From: a virus
Length of the DNA: 64,000 bases
Virus record (IMG/VR): IMGVR_UViG_3300042434_002493
Span: 16,436-80,435 of that record
Reading direction: 5' to 3' (one strand)
Below are positions 24,244 through 63,686 of the stretch, one piece after another. The notes beneath the pieces were generated by a model. That model did not search any database and was not told the origin of the DNA. It worked only from the letters and a program-made list of their open reading frames with translations. A program made the translations under genes and the position numbers. Position 1 is the first letter of the stretch. The number at the start of each line of letters is the position of its first letter.

Positions 24244-26034
24244 ATGGGGAAGATCAAGGCCAAGCAGCTCGCGCTCGTCGCGGCATTCGTTTCCGGCACG
24301 GGCGGGGCGCTCGACCTCGCGGACGAAGGCATCGCCGCATCGAAGCTGGCGGGCAACATCGGAGCCGACAAGCTCAGTCAGGCGTTGCTCAACCAGATCG
24401 TCACCGGCCAGCGCCAGCGCGAGAGCGTGCTGGTGGAGCAGCAACTCCTCGGCAGCAGCGGGGCGGGCGTCGCTCCCGCGACGGTGATCAAGATCGCGAC
24501 GAACCCCAACCAGAACGAGAACATCTACATCAAAAACTCGGAGCAGACCGAGAATTTCGTATTCAAGAACGCCGAGGCCGCGGCGTTCGACGTGCTCATC
24601 GGCGCCAACGCGGATGAGACCGCGGCGAACCTCGCCGCCGCGATCAACGCGGACTCCGCCGGCTGGTCGGCCGTGGTGAAGACGAACCTGGACGCCATCG
24701 CCGGGACCGTCGTCATCATCTACCGCAAGACCACCACGGCCGGCCTCGCCGACCGCGTCTACAAGCTCACCGGCGGTGGCCTCCGCACCGTCAACTTCGC
24801 GGGCGGCCGGTACGACGCGACGGTCAGCTCCGAGGGCGTGATGACCGCCATCGACGCGGACAACCTCACCACCCTGAGCCCGTCGGACCCGGCGACGGCG
24901 ACCTTCGGTTTCGGGCGCGTCGCGGCCGATCTCATCGACGGCGATCTGCGCTTCGTGATGGCCGGCGGCGCTTCGTATGTCTACGACGCGGACGCGGCAC
25001 AGTGGGACAACGCCGGGGCGGCCATCATCGGCGAGGGCGCGGTCGGGGTGGACGAGATCAGCAGCGCCATCGCGGGCGCCGGTCTGCTGGGCGGCTCCGG
25101 CTCCGCCCTGTCGGTCAACGTGGACGACACGGGCATCGAGATCAGCTCGGATGCCCTTCGCCTGAAGGACGGCGGCGTCTCGGCCGGCAAGCTGGGCACC
25201 AACGCCGTGACGACCGCGAAGATCGCCGACGCGAACGTGACGACGGCGAAGCTCGCCGACGACGGCGTGACCACGGCGAAGATCCTCGACGCGAACGTGA
25301 CGACGGCGAAGCTCGCCGACGCGAACGTCACCACGGCGAAGATCGCCGACGCGAACGTGACGACGGCGAAGCTCGCCGACGACGGCGTGACCACGGCGAA
25401 GATCCTCGACGCCAACGTGACGACGGCGAAGCTCGCCGACGCGAACGTGACGACGGCGAAGATCGCCGACGCGAACGTGACCGCCGCGAAGCTCGCCAGC
25501 GACGCCGTGACCACGGCGAAGATCCTCGACGCCAACGTGACGACGGCGAAGCTCGCCGACGCAAACGTGACGACGGCCAAGCTCGCCGCGACGTGCGTCA
25601 CCGCGGCCAAGCTCGGCAGCGACGTTGCCGGCAACGGCCTCACCGGGGGCAACGGCGCGGCCCTCGCCGTGCTCGCCGCCAACACGTCGGTCAACGTCGC
25701 CACTGGCGGCGTCAAGGCCGCCGTGCCCGTCCTGGACGACAAGGCGCGCGCCCCGAGCGGCGCGGTCACGACGGACGAGGCCACCACCGGGCTCACCATC
25801 ACGAAGACCCCGGCCGCCGGCAGCTACATCCGCGTGTCGCTCAACGGCGTCGGTGTGGAGCTGGGCGGCGACAAGACGAAGGACTGTTACTTCAGCGACG
25901 ACGGAGGCACCACCGCGCGTGCCCTCGCCAGTGTGGTCGCGGGTGACACGCTCTACTGGAATGCCGTGATCAGCGGTGTCAATCTCTCGACCGACGATGA
26001 GATCGACTTCGACTACCTCAACACCACCGCCTGA
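24244..26034 (+). CDS. Fibre-like virion protein with decapeptide repeats
   Basis: A 596-residue protein. Residues 319-458 are 14 tandem decapeptides of the form D-A-N-V-T-T-A-K-(L/I)-A. This repeat is well known in phage fibres, where it is likely to form a trimeric shaft. The N-terminal third contains a globular segment (ENIYIKNSEQTENFVFKN) and an anchor. After the repeats, a beta-rich head (residues about 480-596) may be the binding or capping end. AGGAGAAGG supports the ATG at 24244. Because it follows the capsid gene and not the baseplate genes, it may be a head fibre or decoration fibre. Confidence 0.65.
   Translation: MGKIKAKQLALVAAFVSGTGGALDLADEGIAASKLAGNIGADKLSQALLNQIVTGQRQRESVLVEQQLLGSSGAGVAPATVIKIATNPNQNENIYIKNSEQTENFVFKNAEAAAFDVLIGANADETAANLAAAINADSAGWSAVVKTNLDAIAGTVVIIYRKTTTAGLADRVYKLTGGGLRTVNFAGGRYDATVSSEGVMTAIDADNLTTLSPSDPATATFGFGRVAADLIDGDLRFVMAGGASYVYDADAAQWDNAGAAIIGEGAVGVDEISSAIAGAGLLGGSGSALSVNVDDTGIEISSDALRLKDGGVSAGKLGTNAVTTAKIADANVTTAKLADDGVTTAKILDANVTTAKLADANVTTAKIADANVTTAKLADDGVTTAKILDANVTTAKLADANVTTAKIADANVTAAKLASDAVTTAKILDANVTTAKLADANVTTAKLAATCVTAAKLGSDVAGNGLTGGNGAALAVLAANTSVNVATGGVKAAVPVLDDKARAPSGAVTTDEATTGLTITKTPAAGSYIRVSLNGVGVELGGDKTKDCYFSDDGGTTARALASVVAGDTLYWNAVISGVNLSTDDEIDFDYLNTTA
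25198..25617 (+). repeat. 14 tandem 30-bp coding repeats
   Basis: In-frame tandem 30-base units coding decapeptides that alternate KLA, KIA and KIL endings. Units also group into a 120-base higher-order repeat (NV-KLA, DG-KIL, NV-KLA, NV-KIA). Several units are identical at the DNA level, so recent expansion or contraction by recombination is likely. Confidence 0.9.
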
Positions 26035-51580: not shown

Positions 51581-52374
51581 GGAACCTCCACAGCAGCAGG
51601 CGGCCCGGGGAATACCCGAGCGTTGCAGTTGCACGGGCCTGCATCCGAGAACGCCCGGCCGGATGGGCGCTGCCACGCTTTGCAGCTCAGGGAGTGGTCA
51701 CGGTTTTTCACAGCGACGTAGAGCTGCGCCGGTGCGGTGTCCGGCCGGAAGAGGTGCCCGCCGACCGCCCAGAAGTAGCGTTCGGATTCGTCGTGGTAGC
51801 CTTTCGGGTCGAAGGCGATCCCGGCAAGGTAGCAGGCGTCGTCCGCGTCGCGATCCTCTGGGTCGCCGATTTCCAGTTCCGTGCGGCTCAACAACACTTC
51901 GAGGTCCTCGCGGTCAAGTTGACGCACCGCCTCGAATGCGTCGCCCTCGGACTCCGCGAGGATGAGCAGGTGTTGGACGCGCTTGACCTCGACCACGAAG
52001 GGCCGCGCCGGCTTTGCCGCCCGCACCGCGAGCGCAGCGCGCATGATGGGTTGCCAGAGCGCACCGAAACGCTCCCGGTGCGCCGCCCGATCCTCTGCGG
52101 TGCCAGACGACGGGAAGGGCTCCAGGACTGGCACCCGTTCGGCCAGCAGGCGGGCCGCCTCGACCGCGACCTCGCGACAGGCGCGCCAGCCCATCCACCC
52201 GTCATACGCCAGGCTGTAGATGCTCCAGGCCGCATCGCGCGCGCCCGGTTCGTCTCGCCCGTGCTGCGCGGCGACCCAGTCGCCGAAGCGCACCGACTCC
52301 TGGATCTCGACGTACTCCGCCGGCTCGCGGCCGGGATTCGTGCGGGCCTTCAGCGGGCCGATGATGCCATCCAT
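51577..52374 (-). CDS. Hypothetical protein with C-terminal Cys pair
   Basis: A 265-residue protein. The N-terminal 130 residues are helical (WSIYSLAYDGWMGWRACREV), the middle contains an alpha/beta stretch (FVVEVKRVQHLLILAESEGD), and the end carries CNC. Not recognised. It may be a fusion of two small phage domains. A weak AAAGGG ribosome site precedes the ATG. Confidence 0.6.
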   Translation of the reverse strand: MDGIIGPLKARTNPGREPAEYVEIQESVRFGDWVAAQHGRDEPGARDAAWSIYSLAYDGWMGWRACREVAVEAARLLAERVPVLEPFPSSGTAEDRAAHRERFGALWQPIMRAALAVRAAKPARPFVVEVKRVQHLLILAESEGDAFEAVRQLDREDLEVLLSRTELEIGDPEDRDADDACYLAGIAFDPKGYHDESERYFWAVGGHLFRPDTAPAQLYVAVKNRDHSLSCKAWQRPSGRAFSDAGPCNCNARVFPGPPAAVEVP

Positions 52375-52375
52375 T

Positions 52376-52789
52376 TCACACCCTTTCAGTGACTAGGGCG
52401 GACCATCCGCCAATGCGAGCTATGTCATCCGACAACCACGTCAGATCACACTCGTTGCGTTGCACGCGGACCTCGAAGAACCCTTCGAGGCGCGGTTCGA
52501 CCAAAGGAATCAGGCGAGCGTAGAAAGCGCGGTAATCGTTGTTGAGCCTGAAGTCATCACCAGTGGTGCGCAGAGACGACCAGCGCAACACCTCGAATGC
52601 GCCGTTGATCGACCATCCTTTGCGTCCGCGCTTGAACACATCCAGGCACAATCGAATCAGGCTGACGAGTACATGGGGATTAGCCTGGTGGAATGCCGCG
52701 AAGCGTTCCCCAGGCGTACCACCACGCTCATCCGGTTCAGTGAGCGGCGAGAAGATGAGGTCGAGCTGATCGTCATGGCAGTCGCTCAT
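52376..52789 (-). CDS. Conserved phage hypothetical protein, winged-helix-like
   Basis: A 137-residue protein. I chose the ATG at 52789, which overlaps the methyltransferase stop by four bases. The sequence resembles a widespread phage/prophage family of unknown function: FHQANPHV, an F-x-R-G-R-K helix, LRWSSLRTTGDDFRLNN, then YRAFYARL and GFFEVR. Many copies lie near replication and modification genes. It also starts with DDQLDLIF, like a sliding-clamp-binding motif. Function unknown. Confidence 0.7.
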   Translation of the reverse strand: MSDCHDDQLDLIFSPLTEPDERGGTPGERFAAFHQANPHVLVSLIRLCLDVFKRGRKGWSINGAFEVLRWSSLRTTGDDFRLNNDYRAFYARLIPLVEPRLEGFFEVRVQRNECDLTWLSDDIARIGGWSALVTERV

Positions 52790-53703
52790 GGTTTGCGCTC
52801 CCAAGGCTTAGCCATCACTCTATCCAGCCAATCGCGGGCCTCACTCCAGTGACCCCCATCGAGGAGGTCGAGCTGCGAGGCGTTGCGCGCCGCCCGAGCC
52901 GCCGCCACGAGGTCAATGTCAGAGCCGCCGGGCACCTCGTTGCCCCAGGCGTGCCAGCCCTTCGCCCGCTGGCGCGCGAACAGCTCGATTCGAGGGCGGT
53001 CGCCGAGGAGCTGGACGATTCGGTCTCGGACCTCGCCCGGCTTCTCAGAGTGCCGCCCAGGTGGCGCGAGCACGACCTGGTGGACTCCCCCGGACTCCCG
53101 CCCGAGCTTGCCCCTGACGCCGATGAGGCAGACCTCCGTGTTTGTCCGCGTGGACTGGCCCATGCCCCAGAAGAGGCCGCCCAGGTCGCCGCGGTCGAAG
53201 CCGGCCATCACCTGACGAGTGACGCCGATGGAGCGCACCTTGCGCAGGTTGGCGAGGACCTCTTCGAGGCCCGCGAAGTCGTACTTCTCTGCCAGGGCGG
53301 AGTAGTTGCGCAGGCAGTAGCGCACGCCCCGGAGAATGCCCTTTTCCAGGCGACCCCGGGCCGAGGACACCGGCACCAGCGCCGAGGCGACCCCGCGCTG
53401 AATCGTCCGCCGAGCCTCTTCCTGCGCCGAGCGCGGCGCCGTCTTGACCCACACGAACGCGCAGGTGCGGTACGAGAAGCCCCAGGCCCGCATCACCTCG
53501 AAGGCGTCGGGCAGCGTCGGCCAGGTCGCCCAGAGGAACAGCGCGCAGTCGTCCGCCACGAGGTCGGCCACCGGCAGCGCGGCAATCTCCGAGACCGGCA
53601 TCGTGGGGTACTTGAACGCGGCGCCCCGTTGGCCGGCGACCGCTTTGTCATCGTACTGCCAGGGCGGGTCCGCCAGCACGACGCTGTATCTCAGGGCCTC
53701 CAT
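52786..53703 (-). CDS. MT-A70 family DNA N6-adenine methyltransferase
   Basis: A 305-residue protein. The catalytic motif ADPPWQYDD (D12-P-P-W15) stands at the N-terminus, followed by LFLWATWPTLPDAFEVM and a late GMGQSTRTNTEVCLIGVRG, all typical of MT-A70 methyltransferases; the SAM site closes with RHSEKPGEVRDRI. About 65 residues (near 95-165, RRTIQRGVASALVPVSS and on) are inserted between the usual blocks. A QLDLL near the C-terminus resembles a clamp-binding peptide. The start is fixed by GGAGG six bases upstream. Likely modifies phage DNA against restriction. Confidence 0.85.
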   Translation of the reverse strand: MEALRYSVVLADPPWQYDDKAVAGQRGAAFKYPTMPVSEIAALPVADLVADDCALFLWATWPTLPDAFEVMRAWGFSYRTCAFVWVKTAPRSAQEEARRTIQRGVASALVPVSSARGRLEKGILRGVRYCLRNYSALAEKYDFAGLEEVLANLRKVRSIGVTRQVMAGFDRGDLGGLFWGMGQSTRTNTEVCLIGVRGKLGRESGGVHQVVLAPPGRHSEKPGEVRDRIVQLLGDRPRIELFARQRAKGWHAWGNEVPGGSDIDLVAAARAARNASQLDLLDGGHWSEARDWLDRVMAKPWERKP

Positions 53704-53738
53704 GTATCCTCCGATGTGCTCTGCGCCTGTTTTCTTTC

Positions 53739-53819
53739 GCATCATGCACACGGTTCGATGCGGTGTCAATCGAACGGGCGCGAGAAGGTGCGGTTTTCGC
53801 GCTTCCAGTGGCATCATGC
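53739..53819. promoter_or_regulatory. Operator-like dyad flanked by palindromic 9-mers
   Basis: GTTCGAT (53753-53759) and ATCGAAC (53769-53775) form a 7-bp dyad with a 9-base centre. GCATCATGC, a near-palindrome, occurs at 53739-53747 and 53811-53819. They lie between the divergent MT-A70 gene and the regulatory operon, with an XRE-type regulator two genes away, so they are good candidate operators. Confidence 0.5.
53741..53769 (-). promoter_or_regulatory. Leftward promoter for the MT-A70 operon
   Basis: On the minus strand, a perfect -35 TTGACA (53769-53764) is 17 bases from CATGAT (53746-53741). Transcription would begin near 53735, leaving a leader with GGAGG before the ATG at 53703. The -35 overlaps the right half of a dyad, and the -10 overlaps a palindromic 9-mer, so repression there would block the promoter. 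Confidence 0.6.
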
Positions 53820-53853
53820 CCACCGCCACACCATCCATGAGGAGAAGCCCCTC

Positions 53854-54153
53854 GTGCCCATCATCGCCCCGCTCACACCAGGCGACACCATCGAAGCGGT
53901 CATCGACACCCAGGGCGCCCAGGCCGGCACGCGCGCCGTCGTCATGGCCGTCGGATGGATGCCGCTCGACCACGGCTGGCAGGTCCGCCGCGTGGTCGCC
54001 CGCATCGTGACGCCGCCCCGCCGCGGTGGAACGCTCGCCGCCGACATCGAGCGGGGCGCGTGGCGAGGCGTGCCGCGTCACGCAGGCCCGGCAGAGATCG
54101 TGCCGAGCTTCCTGTCGATGGCCGAGCCCGATGGCCAGCGGGAGGCAGCATGA
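53854..54153 (+). CDS. Small hypothetical protein, first gene of the regulatory operon
   Basis: A 99-residue protein from GTG behind GAGGAGA. The sequence (GDTIEAVIDTQGAQAGTRAVVMAVGW) reads as a small beta-barrel, perhaps SH3/KOW-like. Arg-rich later part. It overlaps the HTH gene by four bases, so the two are co-translated and it may assist or modulate the regulator. Confidence 0.6.
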   Translation: MPIIAPLTPGDTIEAVIDTQGAQAGTRAVVMAVGWMPLDHGWQVRRVVARIVTPPRRGGTLAADIERGAWRGVPRHAGPAEIVPSFLSMAEPDGQREAA

Positions 54154-54458
54154 AGTCCGGCCGCCGCATGCTCGACTCGATTCGACTCATCGACGCCAGC
54201 GCCTCGACCGCCACTGGCCGAGACCTTCGCCAGTGGCGCCTGGAGATGGGGCTCGACCAGCGCAGCCTCGCAAAGACCCTTGGGGTCAGCCAGTCCACGG
54301 TCTCGCGCGCCGAGGCCCACAACAAGCGGGAGGAGTGGTACGCCCGGATGGTCTGGTTGCTCTGGTACGGGCTGGAACAACAGCAGCTCATCGCCAACCT
54401 GCGCCTCGCCCTCGGGGAGCAGATGGCCGCCCGCAGGAGCCCCGCGCCCCACGATTAG
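54150..54458 (+). CDS. XRE-family transcription regulator
   Basis: A 102-residue protein. A Cro/CI-type helix-turn-helix spans about residues 24-57 (GLDQRSLAKTLGVSQSTVSR). A helical C-terminal part with two Trp-rich helices (WYARMVWLLWYGLEQQQL) may allow dimerisation. It lies between the divergent control region and the first of two near-identical promoters, so it probably regulates one or both. Ends with TAG. Confidence 0.75.
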   Translation: MKSGRRMLDSIRLIDASASTATGRDLRQWRLEMGLDQRSLAKTLGVSQSTVSRAEAHNKREEWYARMVWLLWYGLEQQQLIANLRLALGEQMAARRSPAPHD

Positions 54459-54469
54459 CGGCGCGCGTG

Positions 54470-54517
54470 TTTTTTTGTGCGTAGCGGCTTGACGCGGGCG
54501 CTTTGCGGCACTAGATT
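54470..54517 (+). promoter_or_regulatory. Strong promoter P1
   Basis: T7-GTGCG (54470-54481), -35 TTGACG (54489-54494), 17-base spacer, -10 TAGATT (54512-54517). The 48-base block is 40/48 identical to P2 at 55059-55106. An in-frame ATG occurs five bases after the -10, upstream of the GTG with a ribosome site. Confidence 0.75.
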
Positions 54518-54543
54518 GGGTCATGAAAAGAAAGGAGCCGAAC

Positions 54544-54828
54544 GTGACCCAGCCCAACCCCAGCCTCGAAGCCGCTCAGGCCAACTGCTCCGCCGCGCTC
54601 GACGCCGCGTGGGCGCTTCCCCCGGCCGAACGCGCCCTCGCCCTCGCCCCCGCCGTTGCCGCCTTGCAGCGCGAAACCGACCGGCTGGCGCCGGAGGATC
54701 TCGAATGGGAGATCCTTGCCCTGGTGGGAGCGCGGGCGACGCTCGCCTACTTCGAGACTCTCCCCGCCCGTGGGCGCGGACTGCGCGCCCACGCCCGTGA
54801 ACTTCCCCGAAAGGAGGCTTTCCGATGA
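54544..54828 (+). CDS. Small helical early protein
   Basis: A 94-residue, Ala-rich helical protein. I favour GTG 54544 because AAAGGAG precedes it at good spacing; the ATG 54523 seven codons upstream lies right at the predicted transcription start and could be a leaderless alternative. No family recognised. First gene under P1 and coupled by ATGA to the next. Confidence 0.65.
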   Translation: MTQPNPSLEAAQANCSAALDAAWALPPAERALALAPAVAALQRETDRLAPEDLEWEILALVGARATLAYFETLPARGRGLRAHARELPRKEAFR

Positions 54829-55043
54829 ACAACAAGCCCGAACCCAGCCCCCTCGGTTACTTCGCCGACGCCGTCATCGCGTACATCGAGAGCATCGAGC
54901 TGGCCACGGCAGACGTGGTGACGGAACTCGAAGCGACAGAGACGCCCGAGGCCACTGTCGCCATCCGCGACCGCTTCTTCGACGCCATCAGACTGGCCGA
55001 CATCGCGCTGTCCGAGGCGCTCGCCGCCCCCAAGGTCTCCTGA
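54825..55043 (+). CDS. Small acidic helical early protein
   Basis: A 72-residue acidic protein, helical by appearance (AYIESIELATADVVTELEATE). It overlaps the previous gene by ATGA. Small acidic early proteins of this kind often bind host enzymes or mimic DNA, but nothing specific can be shown here. P2 follows immediately. Confidence 0.6.
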   Translation: MNNKPEPSPLGYFADAVIAYIESIELATADVVTELEATETPEATVAIRDRFFDAIRLADIALSEALAAPKVS

Positions 55044-55058
55044 TTGTCGTCCCGCCCA

Positions 55059-55106
55059 TTTTTTTGTGCGCAGCGCCTTGACGCATGGCCTTTGCGTCAC
55101 TACATT
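55059..55106 (+). promoter_or_regulatory. Strong promoter P2
   Basis: T7-GTGCG (55059-55070), -35 TTGACG (55078-55083), 17-base spacer, -10 TACATT (55101-55106). It is nearly identical to P1, including the T-run and the distance from T-run to -35. GTG 55113 lies six bases after the -10, 21 bases before the GTG with a ribosome site. Confidence 0.75.
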
Positions 55107-55133
55107 AAGGGCGTGACCACCAAGGAGCAGAAC

Positions 55134-55793
55134 GTGAACAAGACCCCCACCGCCGCCATCATCTCTATCGCGACCGAGCTGTTGCCCATCGAGGGCACTA
55201 CCCTGGATGCCATCCACGAAGCGATCCGCCAGGTCGCCGGCCTCAAGCCCGAGTGGGTCGCCGGCCTCGACCACAAGGCAGCGGTCGCCGAGCTGGCGCG
55301 TCGCCGCAACGTCGTGCTCCCGCCCGAGCCCTTGAACCGCGAGGCCGTCGAGAAGCTCCTGACCTTCGACGTTCGTATGGTGGACGTGGCCACCGCAGAC
55401 GAAGAGTGGACCGGCCCCGCGCTGGAACTGCTCCACAACAACTGCGAGGTCGAAGGCGACGGCGACAGCGTGCTCGAAGCCCTGGCGGAACTGGCCCGAC
55501 TGCCCGCTGGTAGTTCGGTTCTCTGCGGTTTCTTCAGTCTGACCCGGTTGCCTTCGAGTGAAGGCGACAACGTCGAAACCGAAGGCGACAACATCGAAAA
55601 CGACGGTTCCGAAGGCGTCCGCGTCTTCGCCGAGCATGACGACGGCGACGGCCTGGACGCCGCCGAGGGCATCGACGACGACCTGAACGACTACGACGAC
55701 GAATGCGGCTACTACGGCGACTCCAGCTACTCCCGGCGCATAGACCCAGACCAGCGGGCCGAGGCACGGCAGATGGGCTTCACGGACTTCTGA
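55134..55793 (+). CDS. Acidic early protein with repeated EGDN units
   Basis: A 219-residue protein. Residues 1-130 are globular and mainly helical. Residues about 140-205 are extremely acidic with repeated units (EGDNVETEGDNIENDGSEG) and end in a Tyr/Asp run. AAGGAG supports GTG 55134. The acidic tail could mimic nucleic acid, as in some anti-restriction or anti-nucleoid proteins; this is inference. Function unknown. Confidence 0.65.
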   Translation: MNKTPTAAIISIATELLPIEGTTLDAIHEAIRQVAGLKPEWVAGLDHKAAVAELARRRNVVLPPEPLNREAVEKLLTFDVRMVDVATADEEWTGPALELLHNNCEVEGDGDSVLEALAELARLPAGSSVLCGFFSLTRLPSSEGDNVETEGDNIENDGSEGVRVFAEHDDGDGLDAAEGIDDDLNDYDDECGYYGDSSYSRRIDPDQRAEARQMGFTDF

Positions 55794-55835
55794 CGAGCCC
55801 AGCCAGCCCACCACGACACACCAGAGGACCACCAC

Positions 55836-56042
55836 TTGAAGTTCATCACCCTGACAGCCGTTCTGCTCGCGGCCACCGGATGCCGGGACCGAGCCACCTA
55901 CCGCTGTGTTCTGCTTGACGGCCAGGTCGTCGAAACGCAGCTCCGCGAAGACGCGCTGACGCCCACCCCGTTTGGGCTCGTTGTCATGCCCGCCGAGGGC
56001 CGGCCGTTCGTCGCTTCCACATGCCAGGAGATCAACAAGTGA
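55836..56042 (+). CDS. Small lipoprotein
   Basis: A 68-residue protein from TTG with AGAGGA upstream. It begins MKFITLTAVLLAATGC, a type II signal peptide with lipobox LAATGC (C16). The mature part is about 50 residues with one further Cys pair. Phage lipoproteins of this size are often superinfection-exclusion proteins or outer spanins. An outer spanin would need an inner partner, not seen here, so exclusion is as likely. Confidence 0.65.
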   Translation: MKFITLTAVLLAATGCRDRATYRCVLLDGQVVETQLREDALTPTPFGLVVMPAEGRPFVASTCQEINK

Positions 56043-56569
56043 AGACCAGCAATCCCATCGGCATCGGGTCGCAAGGGTGGCGCCCGGCAGACCGGCGCGT
56101 CTACGTTCGAACAGGCAACGACGGCACGGGCGACGGCCGACTGCTTGCGCGCGGCCAGTGGGAGCGCGTTTGGGTCGTCGGGGAGACCACGCGTTCCTGG
56201 ATCTGTAGCTCGGTCGAGGGAGTCCGGCCGGACGACACCAGGCGGACGTTCAAGATCCCGAAATCTGGCGGCCACAACGTCTCCTTTGACGCGAGGGACG
56301 TAGAGCTGCGGATCTGGGCAGGCATCCACCGCCACGCGGTCCAGAAGCGCGTCTATGCCCTCTCGCCCGAGCAACTTGCGGTGATCGCCGCCGCCATGGG
56401 CTACGAAACCATGCCGAGCGAGCCGCGACCGGACGGTCAGCCGTGCCTCATCCATCGGGCCGAGGGCGGATGGCGCGGAGAGCCGCAGCGCCTTCTCGAC
56501 TTCGACGGCCGCCCCGTGGACGCGGACGGCCGACCCATCGCCGAGACGCGCGACGAGGTTCGTCCTTGA
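56039..56569 (+). CDS. Hypothetical early protein
   Basis: A 176-residue protein from GTG overlapping the previous stop. A basic, Trp-rich first half (RGQWERVWVVGETTRSWIC) reads like a small beta fold with possible nucleic-acid contacts. The end is charged with FDGRPVDADGRPI, a near-repeat. No family recognised. Confidence 0.6.
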   Translation: MKTSNPIGIGSQGWRPADRRVYVRTGNDGTGDGRLLARGQWERVWVVGETTRSWICSSVEGVRPDDTRRTFKIPKSGGHNVSFDARDVELRIWAGIHRHAVQKRVYALSPEQLAVIAAAMGYETMPSEPRPDGQPCLIHRAEGGWRGEPQRLLDFDGRPVDADGRPIAETRDEVRP

Positions 56570-56733
56570 GCACCTGCGCAGACGCCCAAGACTGCGCCGA
56601 CCTGCGTTACCCCGGTTCGAGACTGCGCCGCCTGGAGACCGGCGAGGACGCCGAGCCCTGCGACTGCCCATGCCACGACGACTTCGACCAGGACGACTGG
56701 AGCGAAGGCGACGACCCCAACCCGATGTCGTGA
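56566..56733 (+). CDS. Very small acidic Cys-rich protein
   Basis: A 55-residue protein from TTG, overlapping the upstream stop by four bases (TTGA). It has two CxxxxxC-like groups (CADAQDC, CDCPC) followed by an acidic tail (HDDFDQDDWSEGDD). The small size makes the call less certain; the coupled start and the clean fit between neighbours support it. Confidence 0.5.
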   Translation: MSTCADAQDCADLRYPGSRLRRLETGEDAEPCDCPCHDDFDQDDWSEGDDPNPMS

Positions 56734-56756
56734 CGAACGACACCAACGAGGACCAC

Positions 56757-57107
56757 ATGAACGAGAGCAAGACCTGTAGACAATGCTACGGGACGGGCAC
56801 CGTCCAGTACCGCGACGGCCAGCCCCCCAAGCCCTGCCCGGAGTGCGCCCCCGGGCCGGTCGCCGAGCCGTTGCGCTTCACGCGCGATGGCACCGTGGTC
56901 CAGATCGGTGCCTTCGACAAGGGCGAGCGCCCGATCATGCGCCGGCCCTCCGTGCTCCGCCTGGTGCAGAGCGGCCACGGGTACATCGTGGTGGACGTGC
57001 CCATCGAGGGCGTCGGCATCGCCACGGTACAGGCGGTCGCCCCGGTCGAGTTCATGCGCGGCGCCCTGGGCAAAAGCGTGCGCATCACCTTCGAGGTGCT
57101 CTCGTGA
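56757..57107 (+). CDS. DnaJ-type zinc-finger protein
   Basis: A 116-residue protein. The start is set by GAGGA before the ATG; an alternative GTG (56730) overlaps the upstream stop. An N-terminal CRQCYGTGTVQ and CPEC form a DnaJ-like zinc knuckle; the rest is beta-rich with IVVDVPIEGVGIATVQ. Small proteins of this kind are common in phage early regions, function unknown. GTGA coupling to the next gene. Confidence 0.65.
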   Translation: MNESKTCRQCYGTGTVQYRDGQPPKPCPECAPGPVAEPLRFTRDGTVVQIGAFDKGERPIMRRPSVLRLVQSGHGYIVVDVPIEGVGIATVQAVAPVEFMRGALGKSVRITFEVLS

Positions 57108-58072
57108 GCATGCAAGACTACCGCTGCATGTGCGGAGACACCGACTGCCCGAGCTGCGGGACTGCCCAGGGCACGCTGGTCGAGTGCCCGGACGGCGGGC
57201 ACTGTCACCACAACTGCGACCCGGCGGCGTGCTTTCGCGTGCGCCACGCATCGCCGCTCCCGGGCGTGTTCCCCGGGGACCGCTGGCCCGCTGAAGCTGG
57301 GGAGTCGAACGGTGGCGTCGATCCCTTTGCCGCTGACCCGCGCTCCGACCCGATGCCCGCGACGTGGCCGGGCGATGACCCGCTCGACCGGGCGCTTCAC
57401 GAGCTGCCGCCCCTCGACTTCGAGGCGCAGAGAGAGACGGCGCAGTACGTCGAGGACGTGCAGGCGGGCATCCGACCCGAGGACCCCGGGATCGGAGTGG
57501 TTGCTCGCAAGACCGAGCCGATCCCCCCGGTGACGGTCACGCCGCCCTACTGCGGCCCGGGGATGTTCGCGCGCAGGGTGCGCGACAACCTCGCACGCTT
57601 GGCCGTCGAGCCAGACCTCGGGGACACCCTGCGCGCCGTCGCGAGACACACACTGGAGATGGCCGAGCGTACCGTCGAAGAGGTCGCGCTCATCGAGGAC
57701 CAATCCGGCCCGAGGCTCCTCACGGTGCCGCACCACCTCGACGACGCCGACCTCGAAGCCCTACGCGCCGCCATGGAGCAGAGCGCCCACCAGCCGCTCA
57801 TGCTGATTCGGGACAACCCGCCGCCGGCCGCCGGCCCGCTGGCGCTGTCCGCTGGCGACATCGACGAACTGGCCACGAAGATCGGCGCGCGCGTAACCGA
57901 AATGCTGGCCGCCGAGCCCCTGCTGGCCCTGCTGGCGGCCGCGCGCGAGTGGGCCGACTGGTTCGAGGACGATCTTGGAGACGTGGTTGCAAGGAACCTC
58001 AAGGCCAGCGTCGAGGCGTGCGCCGGCATCGGCGCGCTCATCAATGACCAACCGGGCCCGGAGGTGACGTGA
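57104..58072 (+). CDS. Hypothetical protein with N-terminal Cys cluster
   Basis: A 322-residue protein from GTG (overlap with the previous stop); ATG 57110 is an alternative. The first 50 residues carry many Cys/His (CMCGDTDCPSCG; GHCHHNC), likely a metal-binding cluster. The middle is acidic and Pro-rich; the C-terminal 150 residues are helical with a hydrophobic stretch (MLAAEPLLALLAAAREWADW). No family recognised. Confidence 0.6.
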   Translation: MSMQDYRCMCGDTDCPSCGTAQGTLVECPDGGHCHHNCDPAACFRVRHASPLPGVFPGDRWPAEAGESNGGVDPFAADPRSDPMPATWPGDDPLDRALHELPPLDFEAQRETAQYVEDVQAGIRPEDPGIGVVARKTEPIPPVTVTPPYCGPGMFARRVRDNLARLAVEPDLGDTLRAVARHTLEMAERTVEEVALIEDQSGPRLLTVPHHLDDADLEALRAAMEQSAHQPLMLIRDNPPPAAGPLALSAGDIDELATKIGARVTEMLAAEPLLALLAAAREWADWFEDDLGDVVARNLKASVEACAGIGALINDQPGPEVT

Positions 58073-58305
58073 TGCCGTGGTCAACCGATGTTCCGCCGAA
58101 GTGCCGTATCTGCGGAAAGTTGCGTCCGCGCGTGCTCTACGGGTTCGGCAAGGCACACCGAAAGTGCATCGAGAAGGAGAAGAGGTTCGAGCTGACGAGT
58201 GGGCGACCGCAGAAAACCGAACGGCTCGACGAGCTTGGAGCCGTCATGGTGGAGGGCGTTCTGGTTGGCCCCGGCATCGACAGCAGCAAGGTAGGTGGCC
58301 AGTGA
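58072..58305 (+). CDS. Small zinc-binding hypothetical protein
   Basis: A 77-residue protein. CRICGK plus HRKC form a likely zinc knuckle near the start (residues 11-33). The ATG shares one base with the previous stop. The remainder is charged. Function unknown. Confidence 0.6.
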   Translation: MPWSTDVPPKCRICGKLRPRVLYGFGKAHRKCIEKEKRFELTSGRPQKTERLDELGAVMVEGVLVGPGIDSSKVGGQ

Positions 58306-58961
58306 GCGCCCGCCGCAAGTCCTACCAGGAGTGCCGCCGCCGATACGACCGCGACTTCGAGCGCCACGAGCTGCGCGTCGGCGTCGAGGGCCCCAAGGTC
58401 TTCGCCTTCACCCTGCGCAGGCCGGCCGAGTGGATGTACGGCGTCGAGATCCTGTTCACTCCGGTCGGGATTGTGATGCACGGAGACTTCACCCCTCCGT
58501 CGCACCGCGGGCCCTGCGGCGCGTACATGAAGGACCTCGCGTGGTTCGCCGCGGAGATGGACCCCGACTACCTGGCCGGCAAGTTCCTGGAGAAGGGGTG
58601 GACGCGCGAGGGCGCCGAGGACCACATCCGCGACAACATCGAGTCGTTGCGGTCGAGCATCTCCGATTCCAAGGCCGTGAGAGACAAGACGTTGGCGCGC
58701 TGCACCAGACTGGAAGCCATGGTGAACAACGGCGAGGGCCTGACGGATCTCGCCGAGTACGAAGCCACATGGGCGCAGGAGTGGTACGAGGACACCATCG
58801 GCGACGCCGAGTGGGTCTACCCGGACAGAGCCTACGACCCCGCCGGCATGGCAGCCCTCGCAACCATCCACGCGTGCTTTCGACGTCTCTTCTGGACGCG
58901 CTATGAGACCATCGAGCGCGTCAACGACGGGTTCGTCCTGACCGAACGGGCGAAGCCGTGA
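58302..58961 (+). CDS. Hypothetical early protein
   Basis: A 219-residue protein from GTG overlapping the previous stop. The first 90 residues look like a compact beta/alpha fold (VFAFTLRRPAEWMYGVEILF). The rest is helical with many charged residues and a coiled-coil-like region (RDNIESLRSSISDSKAVRD). It ends in a Tyr/Trp-rich segment. Not recognised. Confidence 0.6.
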   Translation: MSARRKSYQECRRRYDRDFERHELRVGVEGPKVFAFTLRRPAEWMYGVEILFTPVGIVMHGDFTPPSHRGPCGAYMKDLAWFAAEMDPDYLAGKFLEKGWTREGAEDHIRDNIESLRSSISDSKAVRDKTLARCTRLEAMVNNGEGLTDLAEYEATWAQEWYEDTIGDAEWVYPDRAYDPAGMAALATIHACFRRLFWTRYETIERVNDGFVLTERAKP

Positions 58962-60156: not shown

Positions 60157-60554
60157 TTCTTCACCGCCAGCGGTCGCTCGCGCGGCTCATACGGCACCGA
60201 CCGGGCAGCCGTCAGGTCGCGCAGATACGCGGCCACGGCCTTCAAGGCCGTGCTGTAGTGCCCACCCGCGCCGGTGCCCGAGCAGAACCAGGGCGGGGCG
60301 TCACCCTTGGCCACGACGTAGACCGGCAGCCCGGCGCCCGCGGCGAAGGCCAGCTCGCCGACCGCCGAGGCATCCTCGGGCGACCAGACGCCGAAGACCG
60401 CCGAGGCGCCCTTGAGGACCGCTCGCGTCGCCTCCGGCTCGTTGCGGTGGACCAGCGTGGCGCAGGGCCCGCACGGCGCGCCGAAGACCTCTTCGAGGGC
60501 CTCGATGAGGGCCGCGTCCGACTGGGGATCAGTGAGCGCGAGGTAGATTTTCAA
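60153..60554 (-). CDS. Nucleoside 2-deoxyribosyltransferase-like protein
   Basis: A 133-residue Rossmann-type protein. It begins MKIYLALTDPQSDAALIEAL and contains AVFGVWSPEDASAVGELAFA followed by GLPVYVVAKGD, similar to nucleoside 2-deoxyribosyltransferase and related folds (acidic residue then a small-residue helix and strand). Members exchange bases on deoxynucleosides or cleave nucleotides; in phages they appear near nucleotide-metabolism genes. Without a search, TIR-like or other Rossmann proteins remain possible. Confidence 0.45.
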   Translation of the reverse strand: MKIYLALTDPQSDAALIEALEEVFGAPCGPCATLVHRNEPEATRAVLKGASAVFGVWSPEDASAVGELAFAAGAGLPVYVVAKGDAPPWFCSGTGAGGHYSTALKAVAAYLRDLTAARSVPYEPRERPLAVKK

Positions 60555-61459
60555 AGCATCACCCCCTGTAAGTCACGAACCTGAAGGGGCGCGGGACGCT
60601 CCTGGACGCGCAGAGCCTCCGGCCATTCGGCGGGGTCCGCGCCGGCCGGGTGGCGCAGGTGGATGCCGAGCCCCTCGCCGACAGACGGCCGCGCGCCCAT
60701 CTGTTTGACGAATGGGGATGCACCGGCCGCACGGCACTGGGCGATGGTATCGCGCGCCCATTCAACCCGAAACGGCCGGGCGTTCGGGCCGGACTCACCG
60801 CCCACAATCACCCAGTCGAGCTTGTGAATCACCACGCGGCGGACGCCGCCGTTTTCGATCTCGTCTGCCAGTACGCCCGGCCCCCACTCCTCCAGGTGTC
60901 GAGAGAAGTCCACCGCCTCCAGCGCCGGCTCGTAGCTCCCGAAGTGCCGCGGCGCCGGCAGGCGCAGCAGGTGGGAGCAGCGGGCGTCCGTCTCGCGCTG
61001 GTTTTCCATCGTGGCCCCCACCCAGGCGTTCGGCGGCCACGAGCCCCACATCCAGGCGTTCGGGACCATTTCGCCGACGAGATGGGGCCGTTTCGTGAGC
61101 AGCAGCCAGACCAGCCAGGGCGTCGCCTCGACCAGATCGAAGAGGCGCGTCCGCGCATCCTGCATCGCCGCCCAGGTCTCGTCCGAGATCGTTTCGCGCT
61201 CCTCGAACACGTCCGCCATCGAGGCGCAGAAGACGAAGGCCGGCTTGCCGAGTTTCTTCGCCTTTGCGTTCCAGGCCAGAGGCTCGCGCCAGTGTTTCTC
61301 ACCGAAGAAGCGCCGCGGCACATCCTTCCCCCAGCCATAGCCGAAGCGCCCCGCCCAGTCCGCCGCGTAACAGTGCTTGCAGGCGGGTGACACCTTGTGA
61401 CAGCCCCACCAGGGGTTGAAGGTGTGATCCGCCCACGAAATCCCCGTGTTCTCACTCAT
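60551..61459 (-). CDS. DUF5131 (phage Gp37/Gp68-type) protein
   Basis: A 302-residue protein starting MSENTGISWADHTFNPWWGC, a strong signature of the DUF5131/Gp37-Gp68 family. C20, C27 and C30 (C-x6-C-x2-C) resemble a radical-SAM-type cluster; later VIVGGESGPNARP is also characteristic. Family members occur in many phages and mobile elements; the reaction is unproved. ATG 61459 overlaps the upstream stop. Confidence 0.8.
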   Translation of the reverse strand: MSENTGISWADHTFNPWWGCHKVSPACKHCYAADWAGRFGYGWGKDVPRRFFGEKHWREPLAWNAKAKKLGKPAFVFCASMADVFEERETISDETWAAMQDARTRLFDLVEATPWLVWLLLTKRPHLVGEMVPNAWMWGSWPPNAWVGATMENQRETDARCSHLLRLPAPRHFGSYEPALEAVDFSRHLEEWGPGVLADEIENGGVRRVVIHKLDWVIVGGESGPNARPFRVEWARDTIAQCRAAGASPFVKQMGARPSVGEGLGIHLRHPAGADPAEWPEALRVQERPAPLQVRDLQGVML

Positions 61460-62909: not shown

Positions 62910-63686
62910 TCATCCTCCGTGCTTTGCGCGAAGTGTCGCGCTCTTAGGCCGGAGGTCTTCGCCGGCCATAATCGTGCAAGTCATGTTGCCGTTGATGCGG
63001 CTCCAGACGCGGTCGCCGACGTAGTCCTCGAAGTCGCCGGGGACCTCCGGTGTGGACACGCGCAGGTTCGTGGAGAACATGACGGTCTGACCCGCCGTGA
63101 GCCGGTCGCCGATCACCCGCTCTGCCACCCGCCGAGCGAAGTCGGAGTCTTGCGCAGCTCCCAGATCATCGACCGCCAGAATGTCTACCGCGAGCAGCGG
63201 CTCGACGATGGGAGAGTCGGGTTTCTTCTCGGCGTAGCAGTTGATCATGCTGTCAAGCAGCGTCCGCCAGTTGACCCACCTCGCACGGTGGCCACGCACG
63301 ATCAATTCATGGACCACACACCCCATGACCCAGCTCTTACCCACGCCAGGCGTGCCGAAGAGGCCGCGACCTTTCGTGCCTCGCTCCCATTCGTCGATGT
63401 ACTTCCGCAAGCCGGACGGGTTGGGGCGCTTCTTATTTGGCTCCCATGCGTCGAGCCGGGCGTCGATGAGATCGGCCGGCAGACGCGCTTCATCGAAACG
63501 CGCCACCAGAGCATCCAGTCGCTTGCAGGTAGGACACTTGCGCGCGTAACTGTACCCATTGACCTCGTACCGCTCGAAGCCAGCCCCGTGACAGACCTGG
63601 CAGGGGACCGCGACCCGCTGGGCGCGCAGGTAGGGTAGCCCCTGATCTGGCCGATGCACCGTCAGGGTGTACTCGCGCTCGCTCAT
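62910..63686 (-). CDS. DnaC-like helicase loader ATPase
   Basis: A 258-residue AAA+ protein. An N-terminal zinc site (C29, C32, C51, C54) precedes Walker A GTPGVGKS (111-118) and Walker B LAVDDLGA (D173, D174). This is the DnaC/IstB type that loads replicative helicases. Located beside a replication-type partial gene and a RecU-like nuclease, it marks this operon as replication-related. Start overlaps the upstream stop. Confidence 0.85.
   Translation of the reverse strand: MSEREYTLTVHRPDQGLPYLRAQRVAVPCQVCHGAGFERYEVNGYSYARKCPTCKRLDALVARFDEARLPADLIDARLDAWEPNKKRPNPSGLRKYIDEWERGTKGRGLFGTPGVGKSWVMGCVVHELIVRGHRARWVNWRTLLDSMINCYAEKKPDSPIVEPLLAVDILAVDDLGAAQDSDFARRVAERVIGDRLTAGQTVMFSTNLRVSTPEVPGDFEDYVGDRVWSRINGNMTCTIMAGEDLRPKSATLRAKHGG

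Follow-up and report, generated by a model that had tools for sequence, protein, structure and literature searches.

Duplicated T-tract promoters, probably of the host sigma70 type, before small genes of a G+C-rich myovirus

The window analysed here, 64,000 nucleotides long, comprises bases 16436-80435 of an 80,435-base virus record. The phage is a myovirus with 70% G+C and genes for the large terminase (L002:3910), portal, major head protein, tail sheath and baseplate wedge. According to rough gene calls, the structural genes of the window occupy the + strand up to 49.7 kb and are followed first by a leftward block at 50.9-53.7 kb that includes an MT-A70 methyltransferase, then by small genes that form a rightward block (53.8-59.4 kb) and, beyond 60.1 kb, by leftward genes again. 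A DUF5131 (PF07505) phage gene lies at 60554-61321 on the - strand and a DnaC-like helicase loader at 62913-63506. A 13-kb contig of the same phage (L003) is 100% identical to the left end of the record over 7203 bases and adds 6012 bases (L003:1-6012) beyond it, with no join to the right end; the 80-kb record is incomplete. The phage DNA in hand thus amounts to 86,447 bases in three stretches. The relative G002 has a terminase that is 90% identical.

The two sites under study both lie within the rightward block. Upstream of the first is a gene for an XRE/HTH_3 protein of 102 aa (54150-54458, + strand), whose stop codon lies 11 nt upstream of the P1 T-run. With the first T of TTGACG counted as -35, P1 (54470-54517, + strand) consists of a T7 tract at 54470-54476 (-54 to -48), the stretch GTGCGTAGCG, a -35 hexamer TTGACG at 54489-54494, a 17-base spacer and a -10 hexamer TAGATT at 54512-54517. 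P2 (55059-55106, + strand) repeats this layout with T7 at 55059-55065, GTGCGCAGCG, TTGACG at 55078-55083, 17 bases and TACATT at 55101-55106. A first-pass annotation had described these as twin promoters 589 bp apart, each with T7-GTGCG, TTGACG and a 17-base spacer, and every one of these elements is present in both copies: the two 48-mers are identical at 40 of 48 positions without gaps, at an offset of exactly 589 bp. By comparison, the best 48-mer pair arising by chance reached at most 33/48 when the 4-kb region was simulated 40 times with a first-order Markov model. The only better same-strand pairs in the window are tandem repeats at 25.2-25.6 kb; these (25206-25613) are offset by multiples of 30 bases and fall within a tail-fibre-like gene (24244-26034).

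Local alignment extends the likeness, with two small gaps, over the Shine-Dalgarno (SD) site and the start codon. Copy 1 (54453-54565, + strand) thereby takes in the end of the XRE gene, P1, the leader, the SD, the GTG start and the first codons, and copy 2 spans 55042-55157 on the same strand, so the unit originally noticed is part of a promoter-SD-start cassette. The stretch AAGGAGCnGAACGTGA lies inside this cassette and has no other match in the window with fewer than two mismatches. The 50 bases 5' of the promoter likeness agree at 12 of 50 positions, i.e. they show no likeness, and against such flanks the conserved parts of the cassette look selected.

Behind P1, an SD (AAAGGAG, 54531-54537) precedes a GTG start at 54544 (54531-54546, + strand), with an in-frame ATG at 54523; behind P2, AAGGAG (55122-55127) precedes a GTG at 55134 (55122-55136, + strand), with an in-frame GTG at 55113. 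Each upstream codon precedes its SD-led GTG by 21 bases and coincides with the predicted transcription start, which would make a leaderless start possible; however, the properly spaced SD, of the kind also found before neighbouring genes, favours the SD-led GTG in either case. The first of these starts opens a small ORF of 94 codons (54544-54828, + strand) that has no family match and a weak coding signal, its codon score being 12.8 versus 10.7 for the best frame on the other strand. A small gene for 72 aa (54825-55043, + strand), likewise with no family match, overlaps the stop of this ORF; P2 comes two ORFs after P1. The gene behind P2 (55134-55793, + strand) codes for 219 aa with an acidic C-terminal half and recovered neither a family match nor a relative; its product is unrelated to that behind P1 (E 0.09).

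Searches around this region returned few relatives. None was found for the XRE gene, including in a search against phages, nor for the gene at 58302, while those of the MT-A70 gene are 13 distant loci at 36-59%. The DNA of 52700-57100 had no match in three TerL relatives, all possibly fragments, and a distant DNA search of phages with 52000-58000 gave just two short unrelated matches. Rfam recovered nothing in 53500-56500, and the searches made here found no close phage record for this group of high-G+C myoviruses. TerL and the gene at 58958 had zero matches in the genome collection and hence did not identify a host. Scans of viral_contigs with exact 45-letter and 25-letter patterns recovered 0 stretches each; a 17-letter pattern recovered 10, none of which runs on into TTGACG at the right place, and these are accordingly chance matches. 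The first-pass annotation had proposed a search for further copies: the 80-kb record holds no other copy of the 48-mer, the 40 shared positions being matched elsewhere at no more than 22/40 in the window and 21/40 in L002, where pattern scans were also empty, but L003 yielded a third T7 promoter.

The hexamer pairs TTGACG/TAGATT and TTGACG/TACATT, 17 bases apart, each agree at 9 of 12 positions with TTGACA/TATAAT, a sigma70-type assignment that presumes the hexamer preference of a host not identified by the searches. Each -10 hexamer agrees with TATAAT at 4/6, and the hexamers alone would not mark P1 and P2 as the strong promoters they had been called. Their identity as promoters is nevertheless well supported by sequence and by comparison: TTGAC-N18-TANNTT has two matches in the window, P1 and P2, against 0.05 expected, which makes them the sole two such sites there, and the same class recurs in relatives. 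The two T7 tracts are also the only T/A runs of at least 7 in the window.

The third promoter, P3 (L003:226-265, within L003:209-289, + strand), has T7 at 226-232, 4 bases, TTGACG, 17 bases and TAAGGT; GGAAGGAGG and an ATG at 289 come next. The P3 tract is the only other T7 in the 86,447 bases besides those of P1 and P2. Small divergent genes flank P3, which lies some 9.7 kb upstream of terL, and the gene that follows P3 (L003:289-612) has been conserved in G002. A pattern search of four records, of which three matched (a reversed control pattern gave 0 matches), recovered its counterpart P3' in G002, close to the contig end. P3' keeps the tract (as T8), TTGACG, 17 bases and a TAGGGT, and its tract opens 11 bases before the -35 as in P3; the 17-base spacers share 9 of 17 bases, and TA-GGT is common to both. 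This conservation is a phylogenetic footprint of a T-tract promoter. Common to P1, P2, P3 and P3' are the T-tract, CTTGACG and TA---T, the tract beginning at -54 in P1 and P2 and at -46 in P3 and P3' (-46 to -40 in P3). Neither P3 nor P3' has the GTGCG box, which therefore does not belong to the general design. When P1, P2 and P3 were aligned with MAFFT, the T-runs were matched rather than the -35s, and the alignment was left out of the analysis.

Across the 86,447 bases, all three T/A runs of at least 7 stand 4 or 12 bases before TTGACG-N17-TANNNT; the chance of TTGAC falling within 20 bases of one such run is about 0.015. Conversely, only 4 of the 130 TTGAC sites on both strands are followed by TANNNT 15-19 bases past the hexamer, namely P1, P2, P3 and a site behind terL, each of which lies on the + strand and precedes an ORF. 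As P1 and P2 share descent they count together as one instance, which leaves two loci, P1/P2 and P3/P3', that independently support the T-tract. The site between terL and the next structural gene (L002:5811-5839; L004:11902-11931; L005:3162-3191) reads TTGACC-17-TACATT after the terminase gene in G000 and TTGACC-18-TAGAGT in L004 and L005, with no T-tract; TTGACC-N17/18-TASANT is thus retained in three of three distinct phages while the spacers have diverged. Retained hexamers with a free spacer are accordingly seen at P3/P3' and at this site, the relatives not covering the region of P1 and P2.

Taken together, these patterns make it probable that P1 and P2 are promoters of the host sigma70 type in which a T-tract forms an UP-like element, and that they are two copies from an old duplication of a promoter-SD-start cassette placed before small genes. 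The phage would then rely on the host housekeeping (sigma70-type) RNA polymerase, which would read TTGACG-17-TASATT. UP elements are described as having a distal zone at -58 to -45 and a proximal zone at -45 to -37 (PMC2613000), and on that account the tract positions -54 to -48 and -46 to -40 fit the distal and proximal zones, respectively. The -60 to -40 region accordingly holds A/T-rich DNA in all four promoters, T7 at -54 to -48 in P1 and P2 and T7 or T8 from -46 in P3 and P3', while the proximal zone of P1 and P2 is G+C-rich. The C-terminal domain of the alpha subunit might hold the narrow minor groove of the T7 in the distal zone, and the tract may thereby raise polymerase recruitment at promoters set in very G+C-rich DNA. 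At each copy transcription would start anew some 20 nt ahead of an SD-led small gene, once just behind the XRE gene and again two genes later. The use of these sites, the contact between T-tract and alpha and the early class of the genes are inferred. The T-run had initially been offered as either an UP-like element or a regulator site. An UP function is likely, as a third T7 promoter exists and a relative keeps the T-tract beside diverged DNA; a regulator site within the T-run is less likely, since P3 and P3' carry the tract without GTGCGnAGCG. We therefore assign the tract common to all four promoters, by inference, to polymerase recruitment and regard the blocks confined to P1 and P2 as possible regulator sites.

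These blocks, GTGCGnAGCG and the spacer CTTTGCGnCAC, are restricted to P1 and P2 among the four T-tract promoters, and neither sigma70 nor UP contacts explain their conservation. It is conceivable, if rather unlikely, that GTGCGnAGCG and TTGACGC-N-CTTTGCGnCAC are operators through which the XRE protein or another phage regulator binds and shuts both promoters, in which case the duplication would yield a small regulon. A gene for an HTH_3 protein lies directly upstream of P1, and P2 holds a perfect 7-bp dyad, TGACGCA-N7-TGCGTCA (55079-55099, + strand), over its -35 and spacer, of which 5 of 7 paired positions are kept in P1 (54490-54510). Among the 15 window matches to TGACGC-N9-GCGTCA with at most two mismatches, P2 alone is perfect and P1 is one of two with a single mismatch; moreover, the differences between P1 and P2 bunch in mid-spacer, 4 of 8 within 5 bases (permutation p 0.053). 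However, 7-bp inverted repeats with loops of 3-15 are not rare, at about 0.15 per 48 bases in the window, the dyad in P1 is not independent of that in P2, and both boxes are missing from P3 and P3'. As a sign of an XRE operator the dyad, perfect in P2 and imperfect in P1, is weak. A separate regulator site at P1 and P2, either GTGCGnAGCG or the spacer dyad, is possible, the dyad being the best candidate operator.

A broader proposal, which we consider unlikely, is that one homopolymer T-tract, placed in either of two slots 8 bases apart, the distal or the proximal UP zone, tags non-structural promoters phage-wide for recruitment as an A/T patch within 70% G+C DNA, and that box and dyad put P1 and P2 under one phage regulator. 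If the preferred reading of P1 and P2 is right, a simple signature (T-tract, TTGACG, 17, TANNNT) would make promoters recognisable in a group of high-G+C myoviruses, and a single genome would let distal and proximal T-tract UP elements be compared as they occur in nature; if not, what is described here is routine promoter anatomy. In itself the design of P1 and P2 is a tidy but ordinary promoter type. That P1 and P2 represent an inert scar of duplication or recombination between small genes, the copies being alike through gene conversion rather than use, is very unlikely: the SD and start codon are indeed repeated besides the promoter, but the flanks have fully diverged while the promoter elements stay, and the same element set occurs at an unrelated locus and is retained in a relative. 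Hardly credible is a reading in which the T-runs are the U-tracts of intrinsic terminators that end the preceding genes, since, even though the T7 tracts start 11-15 nt past the preceding stop codon and a weak G+C hairpin (z -1.3 to -1.5) abuts that of P1, P2 has no hairpin (z +1.1), a terminator scan was empty on the + strand at both, and P3 lies between divergent genes, where no + strand gene ends.

The preferred reading of P1 and P2 as UP-assisted promoters has parallels in known systems. The early promoters of T4 are a well-described case of phage promoters with UP elements (PMC2988021): in that account, several similar promoters are read by the host polymerase, and besides A/T-rich UP DNA they have conserved bases outside the hexamers. 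Unlike in T4, there are here three T-tract promoters in 86 kb, without a TGn extended -10, in a phage of 70% G+C whose host was not identified, and the T-tract is one homopolymer run in two alternative positions. In Helicobacter pylori, a T-tract near the -35 is reported to tune promoters by UP-like contacts (PMC4081817); the sabA tract resembles ours in standing close upstream of the -35, but is described there as length-variable and acting as a rheostat, whereas here it is T7, or T8 in the P3' of the relative. The SAS/ESAS motifs of cluster K mycobacteriophages are likewise repeated, have an SD-like core and immediately precede start codons, for the most part outside the structural module (PMC12699233). 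SAS is given as GGGATAGGAGCCC with at most two mismatches and many copies per genome (PMC12699233), in contrast to the two copies here, and the leaders of P1 and P2 differ from GGGATAGGAGCCC by 4 and 7 mismatches, counted by eye, which sets them apart from that family as so defined.

To the left of the XRE operon, where the genes diverge, a likely promoter of the MT-A70 gene, TTGACA-17-CATGAT (53741-53775, - strand), overlaps a perfect dyad, GTTCGAT-N9-ATCGAAC, which is an operator candidate.
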